DNA from: Lasiosphaeris hirsuta
Lineage: Eukaryota; Ascomycota; Sordariomycetes; Sordariales; Lasiosphaeriaceae
Assembly: GCA_030549175.1 (NCBI GenBank)
Contig: JAUKUA010000004.1
Span: 4,836,001 to 4,900,000, forward strand
Direction: 5' to 3'
DNA: 64,000 nt
The translations under genes were made by a program, and so were the position numbers. The notes under the pieces are model-generated. The model made no database searches, was not told the origin of the DNA, and saw nothing but the letters and a program-made list of their open reading frames with translations. Numbering within the stretch: the stretch's first letter is position 1; every line of letters starts with the position of its first letter. This document shows, piece after piece, positions 1 through 14,544 of the stretch.

Positions 1-925
1 CCCCGGCAGAGAGTCGACCTCGAGAAAGTAGGGCTCCGAGTGGTACAGCGGCTCCCTGTCGTCAAGCGGGCCTTGCCCGTAGACGTTCTGATATCTCATG
101 TTGTCAAAGTTGAAGTAGTTCATGTACGTCTTCTTCTTGAACAGGTTCTTGCCACCTTGCTCGCCAAAACCGATATAGTCTGCTGTAATGGACTTTTCGA
201 CAGCAAGAACAGTCGCATTGTCACGGTACTGGAGGCCGCGGGGCTTGGTCTTCCAAATGATAGCACTAGTGCTGCCCTTGGAGGTCTGGAGCCCAACCTT
301 CTTCACATTGGCACCGTCCGGGACCTGGAGCTCTGGGATCTTCTCGGCGGGCTGAAGGCTCTCAAGGGCACGCACAGCCGTGATTTGGAAAGGATCCCTC
401 CGAATCCATAACTGCAGCTCAACTGCCCGCTTGGGTCCACTGGGGTCAAGGACAGACTGGAGAATGTAGTATTGGGGGTCATCTGTGATGAGCTCGACAG
501 CCCATGTAATTCTCTCCACTGCATCTAGGGTAGCAATGAGATTGCTTAGCGTGTCCTTGATGATGGTCCGTCTAGAGATGTCAATAATCAGCATACCAGC
601 GTGGCCAGGCTGCGTTCAAGCTAGGTAACAGGTTATCTTACGAGTTGAAGTCGGAGTACTGGCTTCCAGAACGAGCTTTGGGATCAAAGCGGATCCTCCA
701 GACCCGGGGCCGCATAAACTGAATCAAGATAAGAGTCTTGTCGTTGAAACGGAAGATGCGGCCATGGCTCGTGGCTGGATTCGCTTTGTTGCCGAGGAGC
801 TGATCGCCGTCCTGGTACGAGATATTACTCGGCCGATTGAACTTCTCGACATTGTTGAAGAAGTCCTCTGCCTTTATGAAGATGTAGGGATCGCGAAGCT
901 TGGTCTGCTCCCAGTAGTCACCCAT
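1..925 (-). CDS. alpha-1,4-glucan lyase, GH31 (5' part, cut by window edge)
   Basis: This enzyme cleaves alpha-1,4-glucans from the non-reducing end by elimination and releases 1,5-anhydro-D-fructose. Only the N-terminal ~280 residues are present. The start is ATG at 925-923; the TTG further upstream is not needed. Exon 1 is 925-642, the intron 641-572 (GTAAG donor, CTCTAG acceptor), and exon 2 runs from 571 off the left edge. Family-specific motifs are clear: KAEDFF near the N-terminus, FMRPRVWRIRFDPKARS, SRTIIKD across the intron, then MNYFNFDNMRYQNVYGQG and DREPLYHSEP. The last two match fungal and algal glucan lyases rather than ordinary alpha-glucosidases. There is no signal peptide, so it is probably cytosolic and acts on glycogen. 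It is transcribed away from the dehydratase gene at 1969-4708, which uses its product. The catalytic part lies outside the window, so activity cannot be judged here. Confidence 0.87.
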
Positions 926-1968
926 AGTGGAGCTTGAATCAGAAGTGCCAAGGTGTGGTGATTGTAAGGAGGCCGAGTACAAGCTTTGAGATTGTTGATC
1001 CTCGGCTGCTTGGAAGAAAACGTTGCGCTATTTTCACCGCATCTTAAACCAAGCAGAATCTCGCAACAGCTCACCGGTTAAAGCCAGTGCGCTGTGGCAA
1101 GGCTGTGGTACGACATGAACCCCGCACCGGTGACTTGGTTTTGCATTGTGAGTGACAAGATCTTATCGCACGGTATCCCCGTGATCTTCATATCCCAGGT
1201 TGTAATGATAACACGAGTGTGCGCGGCTGTGGCGGAAAGTTGGCACGCGCAAGTGACACGGTCGAGAGAGACTGGCGACACGGGGTAGGTAGTACCTTGT
1301 GGACTTCCGTGAATCTCTCACAAATTGGATGCTATAAGCAAGACATGAGTATGGCATTGATCTTTGAAGCCGGACAAGTTGGCGATTCTTGGATAGTAGG
1401 AGTGACGTTGACAGTACCAGGACGGGCTACCACACGGGGGATCTCCGTCAGCCACATTCCTTGGCTGGTCTTGGCCAGCCAATTCAACCAACTCCAACAA
1501 CTGCAACACATCGGACCAACCAGCCCGACAGTCAGCACCAGACCTCCCCGAAGGCCGTCGGACCACCTTTGATACCAATAGATTGTATGACTGGCTAGGG
1601 TAGCGCTTGGGATTTGTGGACGGAACAGTCTTTGACTCTTCGCATTTCAGATAGCACAGCAGTCTGACTGACACAGCCTGACTGGCACAGCCTGACAGGC
1701 CTTCGGCCTGCAGGGCTTGTGCTACCTTCTTTGGATATTAGAAGGGCCTGGAATCCAGCACGTATTTTGACCTGGATCAAGGACCTTGAGGCCAAAGAAG
1801 ATTATCATTGAATTTGAACACCCTTGTTCTCTTTTACATTGCACATACAGTTCCAAGCCGCATACCATATTCTAGATAGCCCCTTGTCACACGAGATCAG
1901 TGGCCGTCCAGTCCTCCAAGTTCTCCTGAGTGTATCAGAGGCACCCATCCAAGTCATGTTCAATTGCC
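926..1968. promoter_or_regulatory. divergent promoter region of the lyase/dehydratase pair
   Basis: A 1.04-kb spacer lies between two divergent start codons. No coding sequence was recognised in it. It carries a short tandem array at about 1664-1701: two 14-bp units (CTGACTGACACAGC and CTGACTGGCACAGC), then a partial third that leads into a small palindrome around GGCCTTCGGCC. A shared promoter for two enzymes of one pathway is an inference from layout. Confidence 0.5.
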
Positions 1969-4708
1969 ATGGCTAACAAATCCAAGAGCCCGATCGTCCC
2001 AATCTTCGAGAGCGCTGTTATAGAAAGTGATCGTCAAGATGGGTATTGGGTCGAGACATTCCACTTCAGCAGGGACGACAAAGCTCCTGGTGTTATCGTG
2101 TAAGTGATTATCATTGCTCAGCACTGATGGCTGTTATACACGCAAGATATTGAGAAGCTAGCTGACTGTAAGGCAGGTCTGGCCTTGTCTCCGGAATCGT
2201 CGAGTTCCTCGACAACCCCATCGCACTGGCAAGTCACGCCAGAGAGGCTGCTCCAGATGATTCATGGACAAGATACGAGGTTGCCAATTTTGACAGCCCT
2301 GTTGCCGTGGTGGCCGTCGACGTCACCAGCAATGGCCTGATGGATGTGCTTGTATGCCATGACTATGGACCTTTCATGCTCGAATGCGACCCCAAAGGGG
2401 GTTGGATAACTTGGCTGGAGAACCCAGGAAGGGACAATCTCAAGAAGAACCCTAAAGATGCCTCAGACAATCATTGGAAACAGCGAAAGATTGGACGTTG
2501 GCCCGCCATGCATAGGATTAAAACCAGGTATTTCACTCAAAGGTAGGCGCCCTGCCTAGTTACTCAGTCGTCTTTGTGTTGATCAGTAGCTAATAGGCCA
2601 ATGCGACCTCATCAGGTCCTACCTCGAGGTTATTGCCGCCTCCGTTGTCTATGGTCCACATGACAAGGTATATCATGGTATTTTTTTCTCTTTTGCCTTT
2701 GTGTGTTACGACGTGGGCATTTGGGCTGATGGGGACAAGACGACACCCATTCCGATCATCCGATTTCAAGCACCCGAGAATGTCCTTGAGTCGTAAGCTG
2801 TCCTCAATCGTTAGGAATTTGCGCTCAAACGGTCAATGTGGGCTGACAATGGTATGTTGGGAACAGAACAGAGTGGCCCAGAGCTATCATCGACGACGAG
2901 AACTTCACCGTTATCCATGAGGTTACTAAGAAGAAGTTGAAGGGCCCCAACGGACTGGACTCGCTGGTTGTCTCGTCCCGTGAGGGCACCACCTGGCTTT
3001 ACTTCGAGAACGGATCTTGGCACAGACAGCTCATCGGCATTGGCGAGCCGAAGGAGCCGCGGCAATCTCCGACGTCCGAGTCTCCCGGCTCGGGCGATCA
3101 CTGGGGTTCCGGCTGTGTGGACGTCGGCGGCCTCGGCGACGACCCCTTCGCCTATATCGCCACGCTTGACCCCTTCCACGGCATTGCGGCTGGCATCTAC
3201 ACCAAGGTCGGCCGTGGCCTCCAAGATACTCAGTGGAAAAAGCAGATACTCGATGTGTACGGCACTCCCAACCAGCTGCAGAAGACGGGAGACGGTCCGG
3301 GCCACTTTATCATCTGTGCTGATTTCGATGGTGACGGAGATGACGAGTTCCTTCTGTCGCTGTTTGGTCCGTTGGATAGAGATGAGAATGGGGAGTCAAT
3401 ACCGGTATGAGACACAGCCATCCATGGCATTGCCGAAAAGGAGAGCCGAGAAAGCTGACGGCTTTTTATGGATAGCCCCCTTCTGGACCGCATCCTAACA
3501 AGGGGATTATGTATTACAAGGCCATCGACGCAAGCAAAGGCTTGTTTGCTAAGTGGAGGATTGCTAATGAGTCATCTGCACGCATCGCCATCGGCAACTT
3601 TGGTGGAAAGGGAAACCTGGACCTCGTCTCCATCTCGTACAACGTTGCAAGATACTACGAGGAGCCCAACCCGGTTGTCACGCTCCATCTCAACAAGACC
3701 CCGAAGCCCGCTCCGCCCATCACTGAGAGCGCCATCATCCCCACGGTATGGGATGGCGAGGGTCTGGTGTATCTTGCGCTCCCGAGCGAGGCGTCGAGCT
3801 CCCAGTCCGCGCCGCTCATCGAGGTTGCCAACTACGCCCTGGCAGTCGAGGTTCACCCACCTGGCACCAAGATCCCCATCGACACGGGCGAGGGCATCAA
3901 GGTGCTGTATGGGGGCGTTGCCGACATCAACGGCTCTCGCACGCCGCTTGGTACCAGCCCCTTCCCAACCCAGGTTTCGACCACCAGCGAGGACTCCAGC
4001 CTAAGCGCCGACGCTGAGACCGGGGCTATCCTGCTTCGTTTGACGCCCGTTAATGATACAGAGGCTGGTGAATGGCCTTCTGCCGCCGAGGTGCCGGTGC
4101 GAACGACGTTTGACACCAGTGAGCTCGGCCTTGACTTTGAACCGCTGGCGTTCAAGAAGGTCGAGGACCTCTGGTGGGGAGAGCCATTCAAGGGCCTGGA
4201 CTTCTACAACATGAGCGGGTTCCACTTCCGCTTTCAGCATGACAAGAGCCAAATCGCCCATTTGCAATTCTGGACAGCCGGTGAGCATCCCCTTACATAT
4301 CTTCCTGATGTTGTTTGTGCCCTCCACGGCATTGCTGACAGTGTGCTGTGACATGAAGGAACGGGCGTGGATTGCGGCGTGCACAATCACACTGATGCCA
4401 TTTTCCAAGAGATCCACATCTGTCTATCTCCCGGGACCGGGAATGGAGGAATGTCTCGCATCAAGGAGGAGTTCGAGGACACGCCGCCGTCCGAGATCCC
4501 GAATCTCGACGAGAGCGCATTTGATCATGTTCCGCTTCCCGAGCTATACGAGCATGGTGGACTATGGCACCGCGACTCGTATGACAAACCGGTTCGGGGC
4601 AAGATGAATCTCGTGTCTTATCCCTGGCACAAGTGGCAGGCCGGAAGTGGCGAGAACGTGGATGCGTGGTTGGCTCTGGAGTTCAACCCTGATCTTCAAG
4701 TGCCGTAA
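1969..4708 (+). CDS. aldos-2-ulose dehydratase-like protein (anhydrofructose dehydratase)
   Basis: Predicted exons are 1969-2099, 2177-2542, 2616-2667, 2740-2792, 2867-3404, 3476-4280 and 4359-4708, giving 764 aa. Intron 2668-2739 is 72 bp with no stop, so it could be retained in frame. The protein resembles fungal aldos-2-ulose dehydratase, which dehydrates 1,5-anhydro-D-fructose to ascopyrone M and isomerises it to microthecin. A beta-propeller-like region fills roughly residues 1-560, with a calcium-type loop DFDGDGDDE near residue 353. A cupin region follows: GFHFRFQHDKSQ, then GVHNHTDAIFQEIH with the HxH and ExH metal ligands (about residues 653-667), EHGGLWHRD and YPWHKW. The protein ends just after this core. 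The basidiomycete enzyme is about 900 aa as I recall and has an extra C-terminal domain that is missing here. There is no signal peptide. The first exon starts at the first ATG that opens the frame. Confidence 0.85.
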
Positions 4709-5604
4709 CCGATATATCGTGGATGATTGTGGAGAAGTCGGATAGATAATGGACAGGGTAGACAATGTTGGAAAGGACTTTGAGAATAGATTGAGATGTC
4801 GTCAAATACAGTATGGTTTCTCCCTAGTCGCTCGTACTAGCACAAAGTATCTGGACCACTTTTTGGTTCCCTGTCGTATTGGTTGATTACGTTAAAGTCT
4901 TTGATTCTTCTTGCTCATACCATCAGGTAACACAATACTGTAACCCCTGAAAACCGTCAGTCACCCAGACTGTAACCCGTGTCGTGGTAAGCCTCACACT
5001 GAAAACCCCTATTCTATTGGTAGGCTCAGCTTGTTGGCGGGTGATGCGGCGTGCGCGGCGACATTAATCCATGTTTTTTCTTGCATCATGACATCTGCCC
5101 TCACACTGGGTGTAATGCTTTACCCAGATCGGCTGTGTTTAGGATTAGTTCAAATTACGTGGGAGTGTCGGAGGTACTACTTTAGCGTGTAGTAACCAAA
5201 ACTCACCGAGGAACGCGCCAGTCGGGGGCATCCGTTCAAAGCAACCACAAATCTTGTTCAGGCGAGGGATAAGGCTTCCACTTGGACCCTATCACGCTGG
5301 ATGGTGGCATCAAGTGCGTTTCAGGTCATGGGAATACATGGCGATAACCTATCAAACCGGGAGCTCCAAGGGCAAGTTTGATGGAGTTCCATAGACGACC
5401 AAGGCACAAGACCTACCGTCGTGCCGCCGGCGGAGGTACGAAGTTACTTGTGAGCATTGATGTTGAGAGCATGTTGCATAAAAGTGCAAGATGAAAGTAT
5501 AAAAGGCGCTACAGATCCCGCCAACGAAGACGATAATTCCACAGGAACAAAACCGTCATTGACTAACTCTGGAACTTCCACAAACTTAAATCATTCATCC
5601 CAAC
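4709..5604. other. intergenic, no gene seen
   Basis: AT-richer spacer. It holds short imperfect repeats near 4935-5010 around ACTGTAACCC and CTGAAAACC, but no ORF with recognisable content. Confidence 0.5.
5496..5506 (+). promoter_or_regulatory. TATA-like element
   Basis: AGTATAAAAGG lies about 100 bp upstream of the ATG at 5605, the usual spacing for a fungal TATA box followed by a short 5' UTR. Confidence 0.4.
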
Positions 5605-6215
5605 ATGCACTCTCCCGCTGCCCCGGCGCTCATCGCCCTCCTCGGCGGTCTCACCCAAATCGCCAAAGCCCAACGCATCATTAGACACACTCACGTTACT
5701 GTCGGCAGTGTCATCACCAGCGTCGAGCACATCCAGCACAGTGATGCCACCGTGGTCGATTTCGCCACGGCCGACTTCAGTCCCTTTAGCGTCGTCAACT
5801 TCACTACCAATGTCGAAGACGGCCAAAGACCATCGCGGCCACACTAACCACGCCATCCCTCGTCGCCGAATGCAGCACTGCCGCTTCGGGCAGTGACGGT
5901 CTTACCAGCGAAGACATGTATCCTTGCACCCAGAACAATCGGGGGGTTTTTTTTTTTTTTTGGATATGTTCGGCCTGGACATGTCGCTGTTCTTAGGGGT
6001 GTTCCGATTAGCGAGTGAGTTCCTCTCGAGTTCCCACGTAAAGTACCCAAGTTTGTGAGCTAACAGAGGCGGGTTCAAGACAAAGCCTATTGGCGATTGG
6101 ACATGGCGACTTGGAGGTGTCCTGCGACACGGATGCAACTCATTGCGAGCAGTCTGGCGTTTCTGAACTCCCGATTGAGGCCGTGTTGACCTGGGTGAGC
6201 CTGAATTCTACTTAA
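5605..6215 (+). pseudogene. degraded small secreted-protein gene
   Basis: The ATG at 5605 opens an 80-aa frame with a plausible signal peptide (MHSPAAPALIALLGGLTQIA, cleavage near AKAQ). The frame stops at 5847 soon after NFTTNVED. A neighbouring frame continues with coherent content (TIAATLTTPSLVAECSTAAS, then GSDGLTSEDMYPCTQNN), so a one-base shift near 5822-5830 is likely. A poly-T tract at 5947-5960 may belong to a former intron. Further coding-like sequence (DLEVSCDTDATHCEQSG) ends at a TAA at 6213-6215. The family was not recognised. A sequencing error instead of true decay cannot be excluded. Confidence 0.4.
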
Positions 6216-7281
6216 AGACGGAGTATCAGGGGATTCAAGAGCATATTGTGTTGGTCCGTGGAGCATGGTACGTCTTGTCAATACGCTATGGTATGTGATT
6301 TTTAGACTACAACAAGCCAGGGAACTTTTGGCAAATTGACAGCATACAACCTAGAGGGAGTTCAAGTATACTTTGAGCCCTTGTCAGCTTTTCTACCAAC
6401 CAATACCTCTATTATTGGAAGTATTTCGTTCCAACCCAAATGCAGTTCAGTCATTAAAACACTTCGCTCGACCCATCGACCCAAATGCCCCGGGAACATG
6501 ATAATGATGATCGGCCCGCTTCGCTGACACGGGAATCCTCGGAATGGAGCGTCCAAGTTTTCCACACAAAGAGCACACCACTTCCCTTTTTTATGCCAAC
6601 CCTGGCTCTCCAATAAAGCCAAGTTGCGGCACAGGTCAGCAAAGGCACATAGCCACGCCGTCCAATACTACTTCCCGTCTTGGCCCTGCACAGTGGCACA
6701 GCGAATCAGTATGGAAGGGTGTGCTGAACCCCCAGCAATCCCGCCACAAAATCCATACCCTCAAACTATTTCGGGGACAAGGCGTAGATGAGTCCCGGCT
6801 TCCGTCTCTCTTAACCGATACCAATGCTGCGGTTTGGCCATGTTTGGCCATGTCTAGCCATGTCTGGCCATGTCTGGCCATGTCCAGCCAATGACCATCC
6901 AATAGCGAGGCGACATTTCATGACGATTGCCAGTGCGTGCCTTACCAACGGCCCGACGTAGCAACACACCGCATTTGCCTTTCGTTAAAGGAACTACTAT
7001 TATTCCATAACTGCTGCATGTAGTGCCAAGACTGAGCTCGATAATAAAAGGATGGCGGGGTGAGAATCTGACTCAGTCATACACCTGTCCTCAACTCCAG
7101 CCGTCTGATCTCCAGACTTTAATTCCAGTGTAAGGTGGTATTGTCATTATTTCCCAGGAAAAGCCAGCAAATTGCAAAAGTTCAGCACATTCCCGCTCAC
7201 ATCCCTCACGATCCAAAAGGCCCTCGCATCCTCAAAGCGCCGACCTCCCGATAACCCAACTCAAAGAGTCGGTAGCACAAC
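6216..7281. other. intergenic with 10-bp minisatellite
   Basis: No gene seen. The segment includes the minisatellite at 6831-6890 and, near 7042-7050, an AATAAAAGG TATA-like element upstream of the Clr5 gene. Confidence 0.5.
6831..6890. repeat. 10-bp tandem repeat, six units
   Basis: Six consecutive 10-mers end in the same GCCA core: GGTTTGGCCA, TGTTTGGCCA, TGTCTAGCCA, TGTCTGGCCA twice, TGTCCAGCCA. Differences between units are transitions, apart from the first base pair of the array. Confidence 0.9.
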
Positions 7282-8926
7282 ATGTCGCCGACCCAGCATC
7301 GGGGGCCGAACACAAGTCAGCCATTGGACGACCGTGGCTGGATTGATGTTGACAAAACTGCAACCACCACCACCGCCTCGTCGGGGGGTAAGAAATGGGC
7401 ATCGAACGAGGACTGGGAGAAGCAGCGGAAAGTCATCACCGAGCTCTACGTCAAAGAAAATTATAAACTACGAGAAATTCATGACCACATGTCGAGAGAA
7501 CATGGCTTCTACGCAACGTGCGTCGCCCTTTCCTCCCAATCCCCCCCCTTTGCATTGCCTTCCTAACACCCCCCGCCCCCCCCCCCCCCCCTTTAGCCCG
7601 AAGATGTACAAAACCCGCTTCCGCCGATGGAACCTCTGGAAAAACACCAAAGCCGCCGACGTCGCCGCCGTCCTGCGCCAAACCACCAACCTCTCCACCT
7701 CGCCACAAACCTTTGTCGTCAACAACAAACAAATCACCACGGACCGCGTCGCCCGCTACATCCGCAACCGCGCGCGCCAGCACCACATCCCGCCCTCCGC
7801 CCTCTCCGCGCTGCTCACCACCACCCCCCACCTCACCCCGCCCGCGAAACCCCTCCCGCTCTCGGCCACCTCCCCCGCCCTCGCCCTCGACGCCACCCTC
7901 CGCGCCGTCCGCGCCTACTTCGCCACCTCCCTCGCCGCCCGCTGGGCCTTTGCCTCCCCCGCCGAGTGCGACCTGGCCGGCGGCGCCGAGGCCTGCCGCC
8001 TCGCGGCCCAGTTCCACGAGCGCTTCAAGACCGCCGCGGGTCTGCTGGCGTCGCCGGTGCCGGCGCAGGCCGTCTCCGGGATGCGCATGACGCGGATTTG
8101 CTTTGCCGAGTTGCAAGGGGTGATGGATGGTGGGTTGGGGCCGGAGGATCCGATTTTTCTGATCTTGTTTTTGATTGTGCTGCAGGCCCTCAGGCGTAAG
8201 GGGCTGAGGGGGATTGAGGTCCGGTTGGTTGGGTATGCGGCCGAGCTGGGCGGGTTGTTGCCGGCGGCGAGGCCCGGGCGCGGCGTGTGGGCCGGCCTGA
8301 GGGACTTGGTGGTTGCCGGGGCCATGGATGATGACGTGTCACTGCGCATCTCGCAGGTCATGGCGGAACTGTGTGCGCGCGAGTTGGGGACGACACATGC
8401 CAAGACGTTGGAGGTGCTGATGTGTGGATATTGCAACTTTGATAAGGATACCGCGACGCAGGAGATGATGTACTTGGGCATGTTGAAAGACTTGGATACC
8501 CTGGGGACGTTTGATGAGAGACATGCTGGTGTCAGGATGTCCTTGGCCTGGTTTTACAACATGTTTGACATGCATGCCAAGGTAGCCCCTATTGTCCTCG
8601 GTGTCGTGGAAGATCCGTGGATGCTTGAGGGGTCCAAGAGGTATCGCGGGGTGACGTACAAGCTGTATTCAGAGCTGGGGATCAGCCGCAAGACGTTGGG
8701 GGAGCTGGAACTAGCCGAAAGGGCTTTCAGGGATGCTATTGGTATTGCCAAGTGGGAGCTGAGCCAGGGTACCGCGAACAAGGCGAGTGTTTTGGAGGGG
8801 TTAGTTAATTTGGAGGAGGTTCTGAGGGAGATAGGGAGAGAATCTGAGGCGGATGAATGCGTCGCCGAGAGGGAGGCTATGGTTCGCGAGGGTCTTGAGG
8901 GCGTTGGTGAAGAGGAAGGGCTTTAG
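7282..8926 (+). CDS. Clr5-domain protein
   Basis: Exons 7282-7517 and 7597-8926 give 521 aa. The intron is 79 bp and has an uninterrupted C tract just before its CTTTAG acceptor. Residues ~40-95 form a Clr5 domain: WEKQRKVITELYVKENYKL, REIHDHM, HGFYATPKMYKTRFRRWNLW, spanning the intron. Clr5 is a fungal DNA-binding-like domain named after fission yeast Clr5. After a low-complexity Ala/Pro/Arg stretch (residues ~120-200) comes a helical region with TPR-like character (around LGISRKTLGELELAERAFRD). Such Clr5-plus-repeat proteins are common in Pezizomycotina and are mostly uncharacterised; a nuclear or regulatory role is inferred only from the domain. The ATG at 7282 was chosen over an upstream non-ATG start because it begins the conserved exon 1 frame. 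Confidence 0.8.
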
Positions 8927-9455
8927 ACATATGCTCCTACCTTTGAAATTACATGACACAGTGTTAGGGGTGGGTCGCCAAGGTACTCAACCGAGTTTAT
9001 ACATGTCATGTCGAACCTTGGCGTATTGCGTTCTGATTTAGAGTAACTCAGCGCAGCCAGGAAGGCTTTGGTAGTAGTTACCAGACAGTAACAGAAAAAG
9101 GGCAATGATTTTGAAGTTTACTACTAGCATGCACCACACAGTACATTCAAGTCGGTAGCCGAACCGCCTTGAGAGGCCCACCACACCCAATGTCCACATC
9201 CGCATACTAGCAAACGCAAAATATGAGCAGAATATAAAAGTGCCACGAATTGAAAACTACTGTACTCAAAGGTTAGGGTAGATCCACTGGGCTGTGCATA
9301 TTGAATATGTCTGTGTCCCCGCGTCTTGTCAAGAATTGTTGGAAGGGGTGAGCCCTCCCAGAAGGTTGTAGCCGCCTCCTGATTGGTAGATAGCTAAGCG
9401 TGGTTCCGGCGTGGCCTACCTACTAAAGAGGGCTAGAGATTTTCCCTGGTCCAGA
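8927..9455. other. intergenic, no gene seen
   Basis: Mixed-composition spacer. An isolated AATATAAAAG at 9231-9240 has no convincing gene after it. The segment abuts the 3' side of the NB-ARC relic and may contain its unrecognisable remains. Confidence 0.4.
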
Positions 9456-9459
9456 ACTA

Positions 9460-9812
9460 TTAATCACAGAATTCATTACTTTTTGTGTTGCCTAACAAGA
9501 AGGCGTACCCGCGGAGTGTGCCAATCGCACGGGCCATTAACTCCGGGCCTAGCTTGGGCAGGATAGACGGCGGGATTCCTCTAGGCTCAATACAGGAGAG
9601 GAATGATAGCAGTCCGGTGGCATCGCTGTCAGATTTGCAGAGGGAGATGTGCTCAAAGGACACGAGCCAGGTAGTCGCTACAGAGTTTTGTGAACCTGTA
9701 CCGAGTGCCGTCATGAAACTCCCAACTTGGCAGGCTGCTGGTATCCTGCTCTGTGTTCCGAAGCAAACCCAGGTATTCGGCAATGGATGCGTGGTTCTGG
9801 GCATAAATGCAA
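9460..9812 (-). pseudogene. relic of an NB-ARC NLR gene
   Basis: Two minus-strand frames carry consecutive parts of the region after the NB-ARC ATPase core found in fungal NB-ARC/TPR proteins. First comes NHASIAEYLGLLRNTEQDTS (about 9800-9735), then, after a frame change near 9690, NSVATTWLVSFEHI, LLSFLSCIEPRGIPPSILP and ARAIGTLRGYAFL. Stops follow at the 3' side and no P-loop or TPR region was found nearby. Only about 110 codons remain, so this is a fragment and not a gene. The assignment rests on the characteristic order of ASIAEYL, VATTWLxSFE and LSCIxPRxIP. Confidence 0.65.
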
Positions 9813-9829
9813 TTGTCAGGGACAGCGTG

Positions 9830-10492
9830 TGACTAGAGCTAAACCAAGTAAATCTGGGCCTGAATGTGGCTGAAATATAATCCCCAACTTACCTTCCATG
9901 GTATCCTATTTGACTCACTTTGAGCCAGCTCCCTTTGAACTGTTCAAACTGTTTGCTGCGCCAAGAACAACTTTGCTAGATAGACCCAGATCCACCCCAC
10001 GCTGACGGCAGAAAGTTCAGGTACCAATTAGAGTCTCTAAGCCTTCAAGATCGAGGTGCTGTTCCTAGCATTTCAGCTAATTTCGTCGTTATCACAGTTT
10101 AGAAAAGGTACTAGGTCAAATTGTAGGCAAGTACTCCCTTTACCTTTATTAGCTGGCCAATTCGACTTGACCACTTCTTTTGCATACCTATTTCGCTTGG
10201 AATTTAGCTTGTATTTTATGACTCAGCTGCTTTGATCTTGTTTGGCTTGAGATACGGAGACATATTTGTCATTCCAGTCGCGTTTGACGCCAATCCTGAG
10301 GCCGTTTTGACCCTCCTCTTACACGTGAACGGTCACTCTGCTCCATGTGGTAGGGTGCATACCATCGGGCTGATGCCCGCGCCGTTTGCACAAACATCAA
10401 AACATCAAACCCTTTACAAGACACAGCAAGCAAGCCCTGAGGTCTCCATTCAAGCACTATCATTATTCCCAAGTATCAATCCCAAGCCACAT
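9830..10492. other. intergenic, no gene seen
   Basis: AT-rich spacer downstream of the BTB gene. Nothing recognisable on either strand. Confidence 0.4.
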
Positions 10493-11675
10493 TCAATCGT
10501 CCCGTAGCTCTAGTCTCCGTATATTCATCTCCACGCCATTAACGAGTGGGTGAATGAAGTTACTCAAGTGACAGGTGTGGCGCTCAGATGAATAATAGTT
10601 GTATGGATCGTCATTACACCAAACTGGTGTCTGAATACTGCGTGCTAAGTTCGCGATTCCCTCAATACTGAATCCAACAAGTGCCGTCGGTCGAGGGAGG
10701 AGACCGTGTGATGCCATCTCCCTGGTGAGCGCACCAAAGAGCATGGAGGAACAGGTGAAAGAGCACTTATTAGCTCGCTCATCTCTCAAATAGGCGAGAA
10801 GACTGTGCAGAATTGTAATGACTTCCTCCACGGCTTCCTGTCTCCGCTGGTCAATTTCACCTGTTGACCGATTAGCTCTCTTCATGTTTGACAGGCCCTA
10901 GATGTGGGGAGCACCTACCGAGTATCTCATCGATAGGTAGACCCGGAGCAGTTATCCTTCCTGGGCTGTGCCTCTGAGCTACCGCTGTGACGCTCCTGAA
11001 CACCTCGGCATGGGAAAACACTTTGGACACTAGGATCCAAAACATTGTATTCATCCCAAATTCCTCGGAAGGACTCTCCTTTCTCAATTTCGGAATCCAG
11101 ATCTCGGTAAAAAGCTCAATCGCTTCGTGGAACTTGTAGTAATCGGTGATCAGCGCAATCTTGGCCAAGGTTTCGAGGCTCACTGATCTAGGAACGCGTC
11201 GAGTATGGCCATGGATGATGTTCATTGTAATGAGCAGCGCCGCCTCATCCCACTCCTCAGCCTCAACAATTCTCTCGCTTTCTGCCCATGGACCGTTCAG
11301 CGCCTTCCTGAAGTATGGAGAAGCTAAGATGAGGTGCCTGGATGAGAGTCGCATTCGGATCTCCCCGAAGATCTCGGTTGGTGAATCGGGCGGTGCAGGC
11401 TCTTCGCCCACCGTTTCTGGCTCTGCTGGGGGCCCATTGGGAGGTTGTGAATATTCGTTGACTCCGGGGTCCAGATTCCGAAATAAATCAGAGTTGTATT
11501 TGCTCCCAATGCTGTCATGCTGTTTGTGGACTGGATCAATTGTCTCTTCACGGTCCCGCTCAAATAGACGGCCTGACCATCGGTGACCCTCGACGCAGGC
11601 TGTCAACGGCATGCTCGGATTGCGGAGAATGAGCAAAAGATCGCCATCAGGGTCCACTTCGTGTGTTGTTTCCAT
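10493..11675 (-). CDS. BTB/POZ domain protein
   Basis: Exon 1 is 11675-10919, the intron 10918-10861 (GTAGGT donor, CAACAG acceptor), and exon 2 10860-10493, giving 374 aa. The N-terminus reads EVDPDGDLLLILRNP, the usual opening of fungal BTB proteins. After an insert of about 80 residues rich in Pro and Glu, the BTB core resumes with RLSSRHLILASPYFRKAL and continues as DEAALLITMNIIHGH and LAKIALITDYYKF. BTB domains dimerise and often serve as adaptors for Cul3 ubiquitin ligases; no Kelch or MATH partner domain is visible, so the function is open. A second BTB gene lies at 60237-61417. The first ATG giving the conserved N-terminus was used. Confidence 0.8.
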
Positions 11676-12434
11676 TTGGGCCGAGAGGCGGAGATCTTGG
11701 GTCAGTCGGGTGGCGCAGTCTCGGTGTAGGCAAAGATCAAAGCTAGAAGAGGGATGAGAATGTCGAGATTCTGGAAGCTAAAAACCTGAGCAACTTTTTT
11801 CTACTTGGGCGTGGTGAATTAGGCCGGCGTGCAGGTCTCTCCTCACACCTGATCCAATAACTTCTCTCCAACCTAGGCTGTGTGACACGATCGAAATCTA
11901 AGCCAGTCACGGCTACTACACGAAACTCAGCTGCCAACGTGGGGCTCTCTGTCCATCATATTTCCCACATGCATTCGAAATCGTCTTGTGCGACGAGGAT
12001 CTGACAAAAGAAAGTGTCAACATATGACTGAAAGACGCCATTTTGAAATGGAAGGCCTCATGTCATAGGTCAATCATTAATATCACACCTTACCACCTCT
12101 CACATTTCACCTGGGTCTGTGGGAGAGACCGTCATCGGACAGCCATATTCCTCCACAGCCAATCAGAGCGCCCACCCACACACTCCGCACGAGTGGCTGA
12201 GGGATTGGCTATGGTTGTGCGTAGGCGCATGCGGGCTCAGCCAAACATCGGTCAGTTTGAGGTGGAGTAGTGGCGCGGCGATGGGAGTCCGGTGGGACAT
12301 GGGGAGGAGGAGGTCAGGACGCTGAAGCTCCAATCTTGGGGGGGAGAAGCAGACTAGGCTGCTCAACAACCTAAACTCTTTTACGTACCACAAGACCTCA
12401 CTCTACCCTGCAACCAAATTTGTAGCATGATACG
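11676..12434. promoter_or_regulatory. divergent spacer between BTB and HET genes
   Basis: About 760 bp separate two divergent starts. It contains CCAAT-type elements (for example near 12158 and 12200) but no coding sequence that I can support. Confidence 0.4.
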
Positions 12435-14544
12435 ATGGGAGCCGACGCAAAAGCCTGGGAGCAGTGTCCGCACTGCAAGGAACTGTTTGGCGGTGTGTAC
12501 GATAAAAGAGTCAAGCTATCAGACATTGTGGCTTCGGCTTCTGGGTGCACAAGGTGCTGGGCCGTGTGTCAAATCTTGCAGCGCGTAACGGATGCGAACA
12601 ATGTCTCTACGACCTTGGTGGGAAGTATCTGGCACGATAACACTCTAGAGATCGGGGTTATCGGGCCAGAGGACACGTTCGAGACCGCTCCTGGGTATAA
12701 GATATATTTAGTACCCCGTCAGTCTCCATCTCACATCCTGTTGAAATAATAAGCAACACATTACTGACCATCACACAGATCATGTCGAAGAGAAACGCGC
12801 TCGCTCGGACCCAACGCTGGGCATACCGATTGCAACTGATCTTGCACACGAAAACTACCGCCCGATCAGAGGACCGCCCGAAGAACGTCTTGCACTGGCC
12901 AAAAGCTGGCTCTCAGAATGCGTGGCTTCGCATGATACCTGCAACGCGGACGTTGAAGAGTACAACTTGCCAAGGCGCCTTCTCGATATATCGGACGACA
13001 ACCTCATCCGGCTAATCCACACGGAACACCATCTCCCTCCGGTATCAGCATACATCGCTCTCAGCTATTGCTGGGGACAGGACGGCGGTAATCTTTGCAC
13101 GTACAGGTCCAATTTGGATCAACACATGGCGGGCATTCCGATACCCTCACTCCCCCCAACCATCAGAGACGTAATTTTTGCTTGCAAGCAGCTTGGCCAA
13201 CCTTATCTTTGGGTTGATGCTCTGTGTATCCTGCAGGACGACTTGGATGACAAGATGACCCAGATACCCCAGATGGCTGACATTTACTCGGGGTCGCTTC
13301 TTACCATCTCGGCAGCCGGCTCCTCGAGCGTGCTCGAAGGCTGCCCGCTGGCGTCGGTCGAGCTGCAGCCTGTCCAGCCGCACGTGTTTGAGCTCGAATA
13401 CCCCCTGGAGACGGGCGGCTCTTCTAGCGACAAACCCGGTCGCAGAGTCACGGCTGTCATTGAGCGGATGGAGCATGAGCGATGCCGCATTCTCCCCGGG
13501 CACTGGGCCCGCGAAACATTTGACCAAGACCCGCGTGATCTGCTGAATGCCATCGAAGAGCGCGCCTGGACCTACCAAGAGCGTTTCTTGGCCAAAAGGA
13601 CCCTCTTCATCGGCAAGGGGGAAATGTCATGGATCTGCGCGAGCGAGGTCCAGTGCGAGTGCAGAAAAAACGGCCCGCAGATAAAGACTGAGGAAGGCGA
13701 CCGCGTGTTTACCCACAGATACAACATCAGCCAAGTGTCTGTGAAGAAGCTGTTCGGTAACTTGGAAATGGACAAAACCTACTCGTTCCTGTGGACTGAT
13801 ATCGTTGCGGCCTACTCGGCCCGGTCGCTGACCCAGTTTAGCGACAGAGTGGCCGCCCTCGAGGGTATTTCTGTGGCTTTTCGAAGAAGATGGCCCGACA
13901 TTTTCAAGGACGACGAATACGTCTTTGGATGCTGGAAACCCTTTCTAGCGCATCTTCTCATCTGGGAAACCTCAGGCCAGCCGGTTTCCGCCCGGATAGA
14001 CCAAGACTTCTTCCCATCCTGGGCGTGGCCATCGTGCGGACGGCCCGTCCGATTTACGAGCTGGGTATGGTATGGCGTCAACCCAAAGTCGTGGGTTCAG
14101 GTGCTGGACCTCGAAGTAAAGCAGGCCGACGGCAGAGGAGGATTTGGGCACGGAAAGGGAACCTTGACGTTGCGGGCCCCCCTGATTCCCGTTCGACAGG
14201 AAGTCGTCAGGTACGACGACGATACCGAGGGGATTTTGCTTACTCCCATTGATACCGACCTGCCATTCCTAACGGGTGGCCCGACTTCTGACGATCCGAG
14301 CAAAGCTCTCGATGCAGACAAGACGGTGACTCATGTGGTCCTTCTCGCGAGCTATCCGTTCAAACCTCTGAAGAAATCACGGCCTTTATCCTGCGCTCTC
14401 CTTTGTGTCGCTCCGGTAATTGGACGAGACGGGGAGTTTCGCCGAGTTGGTATGATGACCACACCGAGAGCGAAAACGGGGTTTTGGGGTTTTCACTTTC
14501 AAAGACTTGTCTCCGCTCATGTAACTGACTTCAAACTAGTCTAG
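12435..14544 (+). CDS. heterokaryon incompatibility (HET) domain protein
   Basis: Exons 12435-12717 and 12779-14544 join through a GTCAGT donor, giving 682 aa; the alternative GTACCC donor breaks the frame. HET domains act in fungal non-self recognition and, where studied, trigger cell death after fusion of unlike strains. The N-terminus has two CxxC pairs (CPHC, CTRC) that could bind metal. The HET core begins with YIALSYCWGQ (about residue 185), then LWVDALCILQDD with MADIYSGSLLTISAAGSS following, and RAWTYQERFL, the usual three blocks. No NACHT, WD40 or other sensor domain is fused. The gene appears intact, unlike several NLR-type loci in the window. Confidence 0.88.

Follow-up and report, generated by a model that had tools for sequence, protein, structure and literature searches.

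A divergent glucan lyase/AUDH gene pair in Lasiosphaeris hirsuta and its probable anhydrofructose route

We describe a pair of divergent genes in the fungus Lasiosphaeris hirsuta (genome of 44.4 Mb in 14 contigs)—one for a GH31 protein of the predicted alpha-1,4-glucan lyase type, the other for a relative of aldos-2-ulose dehydratase (AUDH). The window is the whole stretch of DNA that was analysed, the 64,000 nucleotides C9:4836001-4900000; positions given without a contig are counted from its first letter.

Structure of the two genes

Both genes are intact and lie head-to-head, with 1043 bp between their start codons; the divergent arrangement and the spacing of about 1 kb are those given in the original prediction, which had been made from the sequence of the window. 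The region between the start codons (926..1968) may act as a shared promoter. The lyase gene, on the minus strand, has its start codon at 925; exon 1 lies at 642..925 and the part of exon 2 that falls in the window at 1..571, from where the gene continues leftwards to C9:4833208. Fetched whole beyond the window, it has seven exons with GT-AG at every intron and encodes 1099 amino acids; a database-style model of the protein (P0090) has 19 residues fewer than the model built here and is otherwise the same. The window holds about 285 N-terminal residues, encoded by exon 1 and part of exon 2, and the catalytic motifs—WQDMTSP, with the nucleophile D555, and GLWTGDN, with the acid D652—lie outside it. 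The original prediction was right to call a lyase, but the motifs that it took as diagnostic were N-terminal family motifs, not catalytic residues; D555, D652 and a serine three positions after the nucleophile were found when the gene was read leftwards, as had been proposed.

The AUDH gene, on the plus strand at 1969..4708, encodes 764 amino acids in seven exons (1969-2099, 2177-2542, 2616-2667, 2740-2792, 2867-3404, 3476-4280 and 4359-4708), with GT-AG at all six introns. Its translation is identical to the 764-residue L. hirsuta protein B0H67DRAFT_256768 (P0001). Converted from residues to nucleotides via the exons, the Pfam AUDH beta-propeller match (residues 118-314) spans 2397..3206 on the plus strand, introns included, and the Pfam AUDH cupin match (residues 466-758), which contains the HNH...EIH and YPWH motifs, spans 3731..4687 on the same strand, intron included. 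The HxH/ExH cupin and propeller read earlier from this strand are thus both present.

Family membership of the two proteins

A search against solved structures aligned residues 9-757 of the 764 in the plus-strand protein with AUDH of Phanerochaete chrysosporium (4a7k, E=2.4e-111); the sole other row up to E=1 had E=0.41. The Pfam scores, 365 bits for AUDH_Cupin (PF18637) and 237.4 bits for AUDH_beta_propeller (PF22301), are far above cut-off. The cupin motifs are HNHTDAIFQEIH at residues 657-668 and YPWH at 736-739, and in the alignment columns of 122 relatives—the proteins of at least 690 amino acids out of 152 (P0001-P0070 and P0210-P0291)—H657, H659, E666, H668 and H739 are conserved in 115, 118, 120, 120 and 121, respectively. 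The propeller and cupin domains are complete with conserved residues, which by sequence places the gene in the AUDH family; no second AUDH match was found in the L. hirsuta genome. The protein shares the propeller, the double cupin, HNH...EIH and YPWH with the P. chrysosporium enzyme (4a7k/4a7z/4a7y), which is 29-35% identical to the nine ascomycete rows listed and differs in that its residues beyond about 735 have no counterpart in L. hirsuta. The L. hirsuta protein ends 25 residues past H739, and the long C-terminal tail of the characterised enzyme is absent; we take this tail to be a lectin-like domain and treat it here as optional. A full-length relative with both domains (37% identical) is also present in the bdelloid rotifer Rotaria sp. 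Silwood2 (P0069, 17 member sequences), possibly by transfer from fungi.

The minus-strand protein scores 226.7 bits against the GH31 catalytic domain (PF01055), and D555 and D652 were assigned as nucleophile and acid by alignment. The position three residues after the nucleophile (nucleophile+3) is Ser in the L. hirsuta protein (WQDMTSP) and Glu in all four hydrolase-type GH31 proteins; the hydrolase-type combination of WxDM with this Glu is accordingly missing. Among 112 lyase-type sequences the position is Ser in 62, Thr in 33, Gly in 14 and Gln in one, with two sequences not covering it, and in the algal lyase 2x2h it is Val. A change from Glu to Val at this site reportedly shifts a GH31 glucosidase towards lyase activity (Rozeboom 2013).

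The gene tree separates the 112 lyase-type sequences from the four Glu-bearing GH31 proteins with support 1.0 and a stem of 1.37. The L. hirsuta protein lies at a distance of 2.04 from a Morchella lyase and of 4.35-5.38 from three of the four hydrolase-type proteins, and when the algal lyase fragment was added, hydrolases were split from all lyases with UFBoot 100. A grouping with hydrolytic alpha-glucosidases, which would have refuted the original prediction, was not found with the hydrolase-type GH31 proteins used. The tree omits a 105-residue fragment, one GH31 sequence without the WxDM motif and 14 of the 119 lyase rows listed besides P0090 (all below 950 amino acids and unpaired), and our own model replaces P0090. 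We assign the protein to the alpha-1,4-glucan lyase clade (EC 4.2.2.13), of which it is a predicted member. Since the AUDH match has E=2.4e-111 and the lyase shares up to 80% identity, along its whole length, with relatives among the matches listed, a chance match is excluded. The seven other GH31 loci that were fetched from the genome (L022-L028) include none that is lyase-like; the best tblastn match of the L. hirsuta lyase to them scored 114 bits at 22% identity.

The closest comparison is with the Morchella alpha-1,4-glucan lyase (Q9UVZ1, P0170), reportedly a biochemically characterised enzyme, which has the WQDMT motif, belongs to the same clade and is 42% identical; it carries Thr at nucleophile+3 in TTPA, whereas the L. 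hirsuta lyase carries Ser in TSPC and falls in a separate subclade. The Gracilariopsis lemaneiformis lyase 2x2h shares WQDMT, VDVDMQD and GDN, but is far more distant and is placed apart from the group that the fungal and bacterial lyases form (UFBoot 97). The nucleophile site also varies within one fungus: Kalaharituber has at least three lyases, of which P0194, whose contig has the same length as that of an AUDH, reads TGPC, and P0181 and P0182, on other contigs, read TTPA. This rule is not general, since in Tuber brumale the lyase linked to AUDH belongs to the TTPA type.

Linkage in fungi and gene neighbours in bacteria

A pair was scored when an AUDH row and a lyase row, each representing a cluster, showed longest contigs of identical size; for fungi other than L. 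hirsuta, linkage is judged from this equal size and, in two cases, from locus tags. The comparison covered the 89 AUDH rows listed in one search, 120 of 185 from a second (nine of them repeats) and the best 120 of 564 lyase rows. Among the matches listed, 19 fungal AUDH/lyase pairs share a contig—conservation of the pair in relatives, on which the original prediction had been staked, is thus found. In 17 cases both rows carry one and the same organism name, and in the other two (L. hirsuta and Cercophora) the lyase row has no name. Nine of the pairs are on contigs shorter than 200 kb, where random co-occurrence of two genes in a 40-Mb genome is expected at less than 0.5% each; as a control for accidental equality, 6 pairs of non-identical sizes fell within 50 bases of each other (94 AUDH rows). 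Monosporascus has consecutive locus tags (DL765_009768 and DL765_009769), and in Diplodia the tags are two apart (SLS58_009886 and SLS58_009884). The pairs occur in Sordariomycetes, Leotiomycetes (Tricladium), Dothideomycetes (Lepidopterella, Macrophomina, Diplodia) and Pezizomycetes (Kalaharituber, Tuber). Since these 19 cases span four classes, the genes are spread more widely than the "Pezizales and some basidiomycetes" of the original prediction. The majority of AUDH rows have no partner among the matches listed, which is not evidence of absence, as the clusters pool genomes and the lyase rows compared were the best 120 of 564; in Camillea both genes are listed, with contigs of different size (P0070 and P0100).

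Distances in the two gene trees correlate across the 19 pairs (Mantel Spearman 0.85; best of 5000 permutations 0.62), and shared species history accounts for part of this correlation. Tricladium has two pairs on different contigs: in one, both AUDH and lyase are placed next to Lepidopterella, and in the other, both are placed among Hypocreales and Monosporascus. Duplication or transfer of whole pairs would be expected to give such matching partners in both trees, and, as judged from trees and contigs, the AUDH/lyase pair seems to travel as a unit between fungi.

Lyase loci were found in six bacteria, five cyanobacteria and one Paenibacillus. An AUDH-type cupin, encoded as a separate gene, adjoins the lyase or sits one gene away in all six (one is a remnant), and a propeller gene is also present in four, those that were located via the propeller. 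In Planktothricoides (L040:7998-9328) the propeller gene is interrupted, with the cupin and lyase frames open. The bacterial cupin is a distant relative: a phmmer search with the L. hirsuta cupin half against the bacterial open frames gave no match, a profile search of the bacterial cupin against solved structures likewise gave none, and Pfam gave sub-threshold matches in two of four and none in the other two. Profile-profile and fold comparison detected an AUDH-like double-cupin fold and its residues; the model was built from 9 sequences, and of the five models obtained two had low quality (62.8 and 58.5). Bacteria are thus predicted to encode AUDH split in two genes, and fungi as one. The split form, with propeller and cupin separate, would make the dehydratase and isomerase steps directly assignable. 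No plasmid match to the bacterial lyase was obtained at E 1e-100.

Relatives of AUDH also have other neighbours. A propeller-only gene of Streptomyces flavidovirens has a pyranose oxidase at a distance of about 1 kb (561 bits against a curated cut-off of 544.9), with an open frame between them. At L036:5254-9230 a pyranose oxidase, an open frame that by eye resembles a sugar isomerase, and a propeller-only AUDH follow one another on one strand. L041-L043 have a nearby GMC oxidoreductase whose end weakly resembles a pyranose oxidase, and none was seen in L044. In Aquimarina and Flavivirga (L042 and L043) the propeller-only gene is lined up with genes for a GMC oxidoreductase, for a ferritin-like protein and for a glycogen debranching enzyme; these families were read directly in L042 and by similarity of the genes in L043.

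Among plasmid records, 26 carry the cupin gene, and 22 of these come from Shinella, Rhizobium, Sinorhizobium or Ensifer. Seven plasmid loci were read; the Streptomyces one has an adjoining propeller, and the other six have none in the stretch read. An oxidoreductase is near the cupin in four of these six, all four on rhizobial plasmids—named Gfo/Idh/MocA in L067, L068 and L073 and "putative oxidoreductase" in L072—and none is in view in L069 or L071. The best solved relatives of the L067 oxidoreductase, the only one tested, are 1,5-anhydro-D-fructose reductases (125 and 119 bits; next 54). The rhizobial cupin clusters with sugar transporters and sugar-enzyme genes. These neighbours point to keto-sugar substrates of the anhydrofructose and glucosone type. 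The pyranose oxidase found as a partner in one Streptomyces suggests that the partner of an AUDH relative is the enzyme, of whatever kind, that provides its keto-sugar. In L029-L035 and L070 (Streptomyces, Kibdelosporangium, Paraburkholderia) cupin and propeller occur with no lyase, several near a WecB-type epimerase, an acyltransferase or an FAD oxidase; these are possibly natural-product clusters.

The proposed route and its alternatives

In the anhydrofructose pathway, AUDH is the step after glucan lyase. We consider it likely that the divergent pair encodes this two-step route, on the strength of gene structure, sequence-based family membership, conserved catalytic positions and conserved linkage; activity, step order in vivo, end product, shared control and location are what we infer. 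The GH31 lyase would attack the non-reducing end of glycogen or another alpha-1,4-glucan, with D555 forming the glucosyl-enzyme and D652 serving as acid. Release would be by elimination, with removal of the C2 proton, and not by water, giving 1,5-anhydro-D-fructose; elimination is proposed on the ground that Ser takes the place of the hydrolase Glu at nucleophile+3. AUDH would dehydrate this product to ascopyrone M and isomerise it to microthecin. By hydrophobicity of the first 40 residues, the lyase has no signal peptide and AUDH no clear one, which makes an intracellular location of the route probable. According to PMC12441222, ascopyrone and microthecin have antibacterial activity. The anhydrofructose pathway of glycogen catabolism reported by Yu uses these two enzyme families in this order; it differs from the present case in that here the genes form a linked divergent pair, well outside the hosts from which the route is known.

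On a larger scale, we lean slightly towards viewing the pair as the fungal, fused form of a module of lyase, propeller and cupin that is found in bacteria and fungi and has moved as a unit between fungal lineages, with anhydro-sugar metabolism being widespread. As the rhizobial cupin lies near an anhydrofructose-reductase relative, an anhydro-sugar branch from alpha-glucan may be common and largely unnoticed.

Several observations weigh against these interpretations. The two cyanobacteria that were located by lyase search have no propeller gene, and AUDH of Coniochaeta, Aspergillus and Penicillium has no lyase among the best 120 of 564 rows. The Escovopsis, Macrophomina/Diplodia and Xylariales pairs are placed differently in the two trees. 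The signal-peptide result comes from hydrophobicity and is weak for AUDH; this protein also stops short of the C-terminal part found in P. chrysosporium. Comparison of folds does not set the protein apart as a lyase: Foldseek ranks 2x2h first, but VIA scores 24 other GH31 chains, all of them hydrolases by title, above 2x2h (Z up to 35.7 against 33.1). Finally, no biochemistry of this lyase subclade or of any ascomycete AUDH was found in the literature searched (PMC6003095, PMC12441222, PMC9061262, PMC12903740, PMC11650716, PMC8023676, PMC4795551, PMC6629992, PMC8185036, PMC11046441 and PMC5969746).

The VIA order could mean that the GH31 protein is simply one more alpha-glucosidase, with another role for the pair, as could the database label "alpha-glucosidase" carried by many relatives and the similar solved-structure scores of maltase-glucoamylase (161 bits) and 2x2h (158 bits); the tree placement and the change from Glu to Ser at nucleophile+3 contradict this, and we regard it as very improbable. 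It is also improbable, if slightly less so, that AUDH acts on glucosone from pyranose oxidase, by the cortalcerone route, with the lyase as an incidental neighbour. The formation of cortalcerone from glucose by pyranose oxidase and AUDH is in print; the S. flavidovirens neighbourhood offers a parallel, and L. hirsuta itself has weak pyranose-oxidase-like stretches at C12:46820-47751, near the contig end, and one at C14. These score at most 62.5 bits against the cut-off of 544.9, with stops in two of the three at C12, and no pyranose oxidase above cut-off was found in the genome in a scan that scored exons apart, so that a spliced gene could score higher. The fungal AUDH-lyase linkage is moreover far above chance, and the bacterial lyases sit with an AUDH cupin.

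A less distant alternative keeps the first step and changes the end to ascopyrone M, a different enone or simple carbon catabolism, given that this AUDH has no counterpart of the C-terminal domain present in the characterised enzyme. A tail of at least 100 residues after the YPWH column is found in none of the 46 proteins in the set of AUDH's own relatives (mostly ascomycete) and in 32 of 76 in the mostly basidiomycete set, and the sugar transporters and sugar enzymes around the rhizobial cupin would fit such an end. Yet the propeller and cupin are complete with their conserved residues, and 44 of the 76 likewise do without a long tail; we see such an end as possible, and would still put microthecin, as the end of the two-step route, before it.

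Both enzyme families and the pathway are already known. The literature searched contained no description of the conserved fungal pair or of its apparent joint movement, nor of the three-gene form in bacteria or the split AUDH; in PMC12903740, "glucan lyase" occurs only in a reference. The compact pair with one upstream region, present in four fungal classes, and the bacterial gene rows offer defined targets for deletion and expression.

The genes flanking the pair were read by eye as candidates for a wider cluster: apparent HET- and NACHT-type genes lie to the left (L010) and apparent Clr5-, BTB- and HET-type genes to the right (window 7276-14541), and no sugar gene was seen among them, so we take the pair to be two genes only. 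At window 5604-6350 there is the start of a small, secreted-looking protein, whose reading frame soon breaks off.

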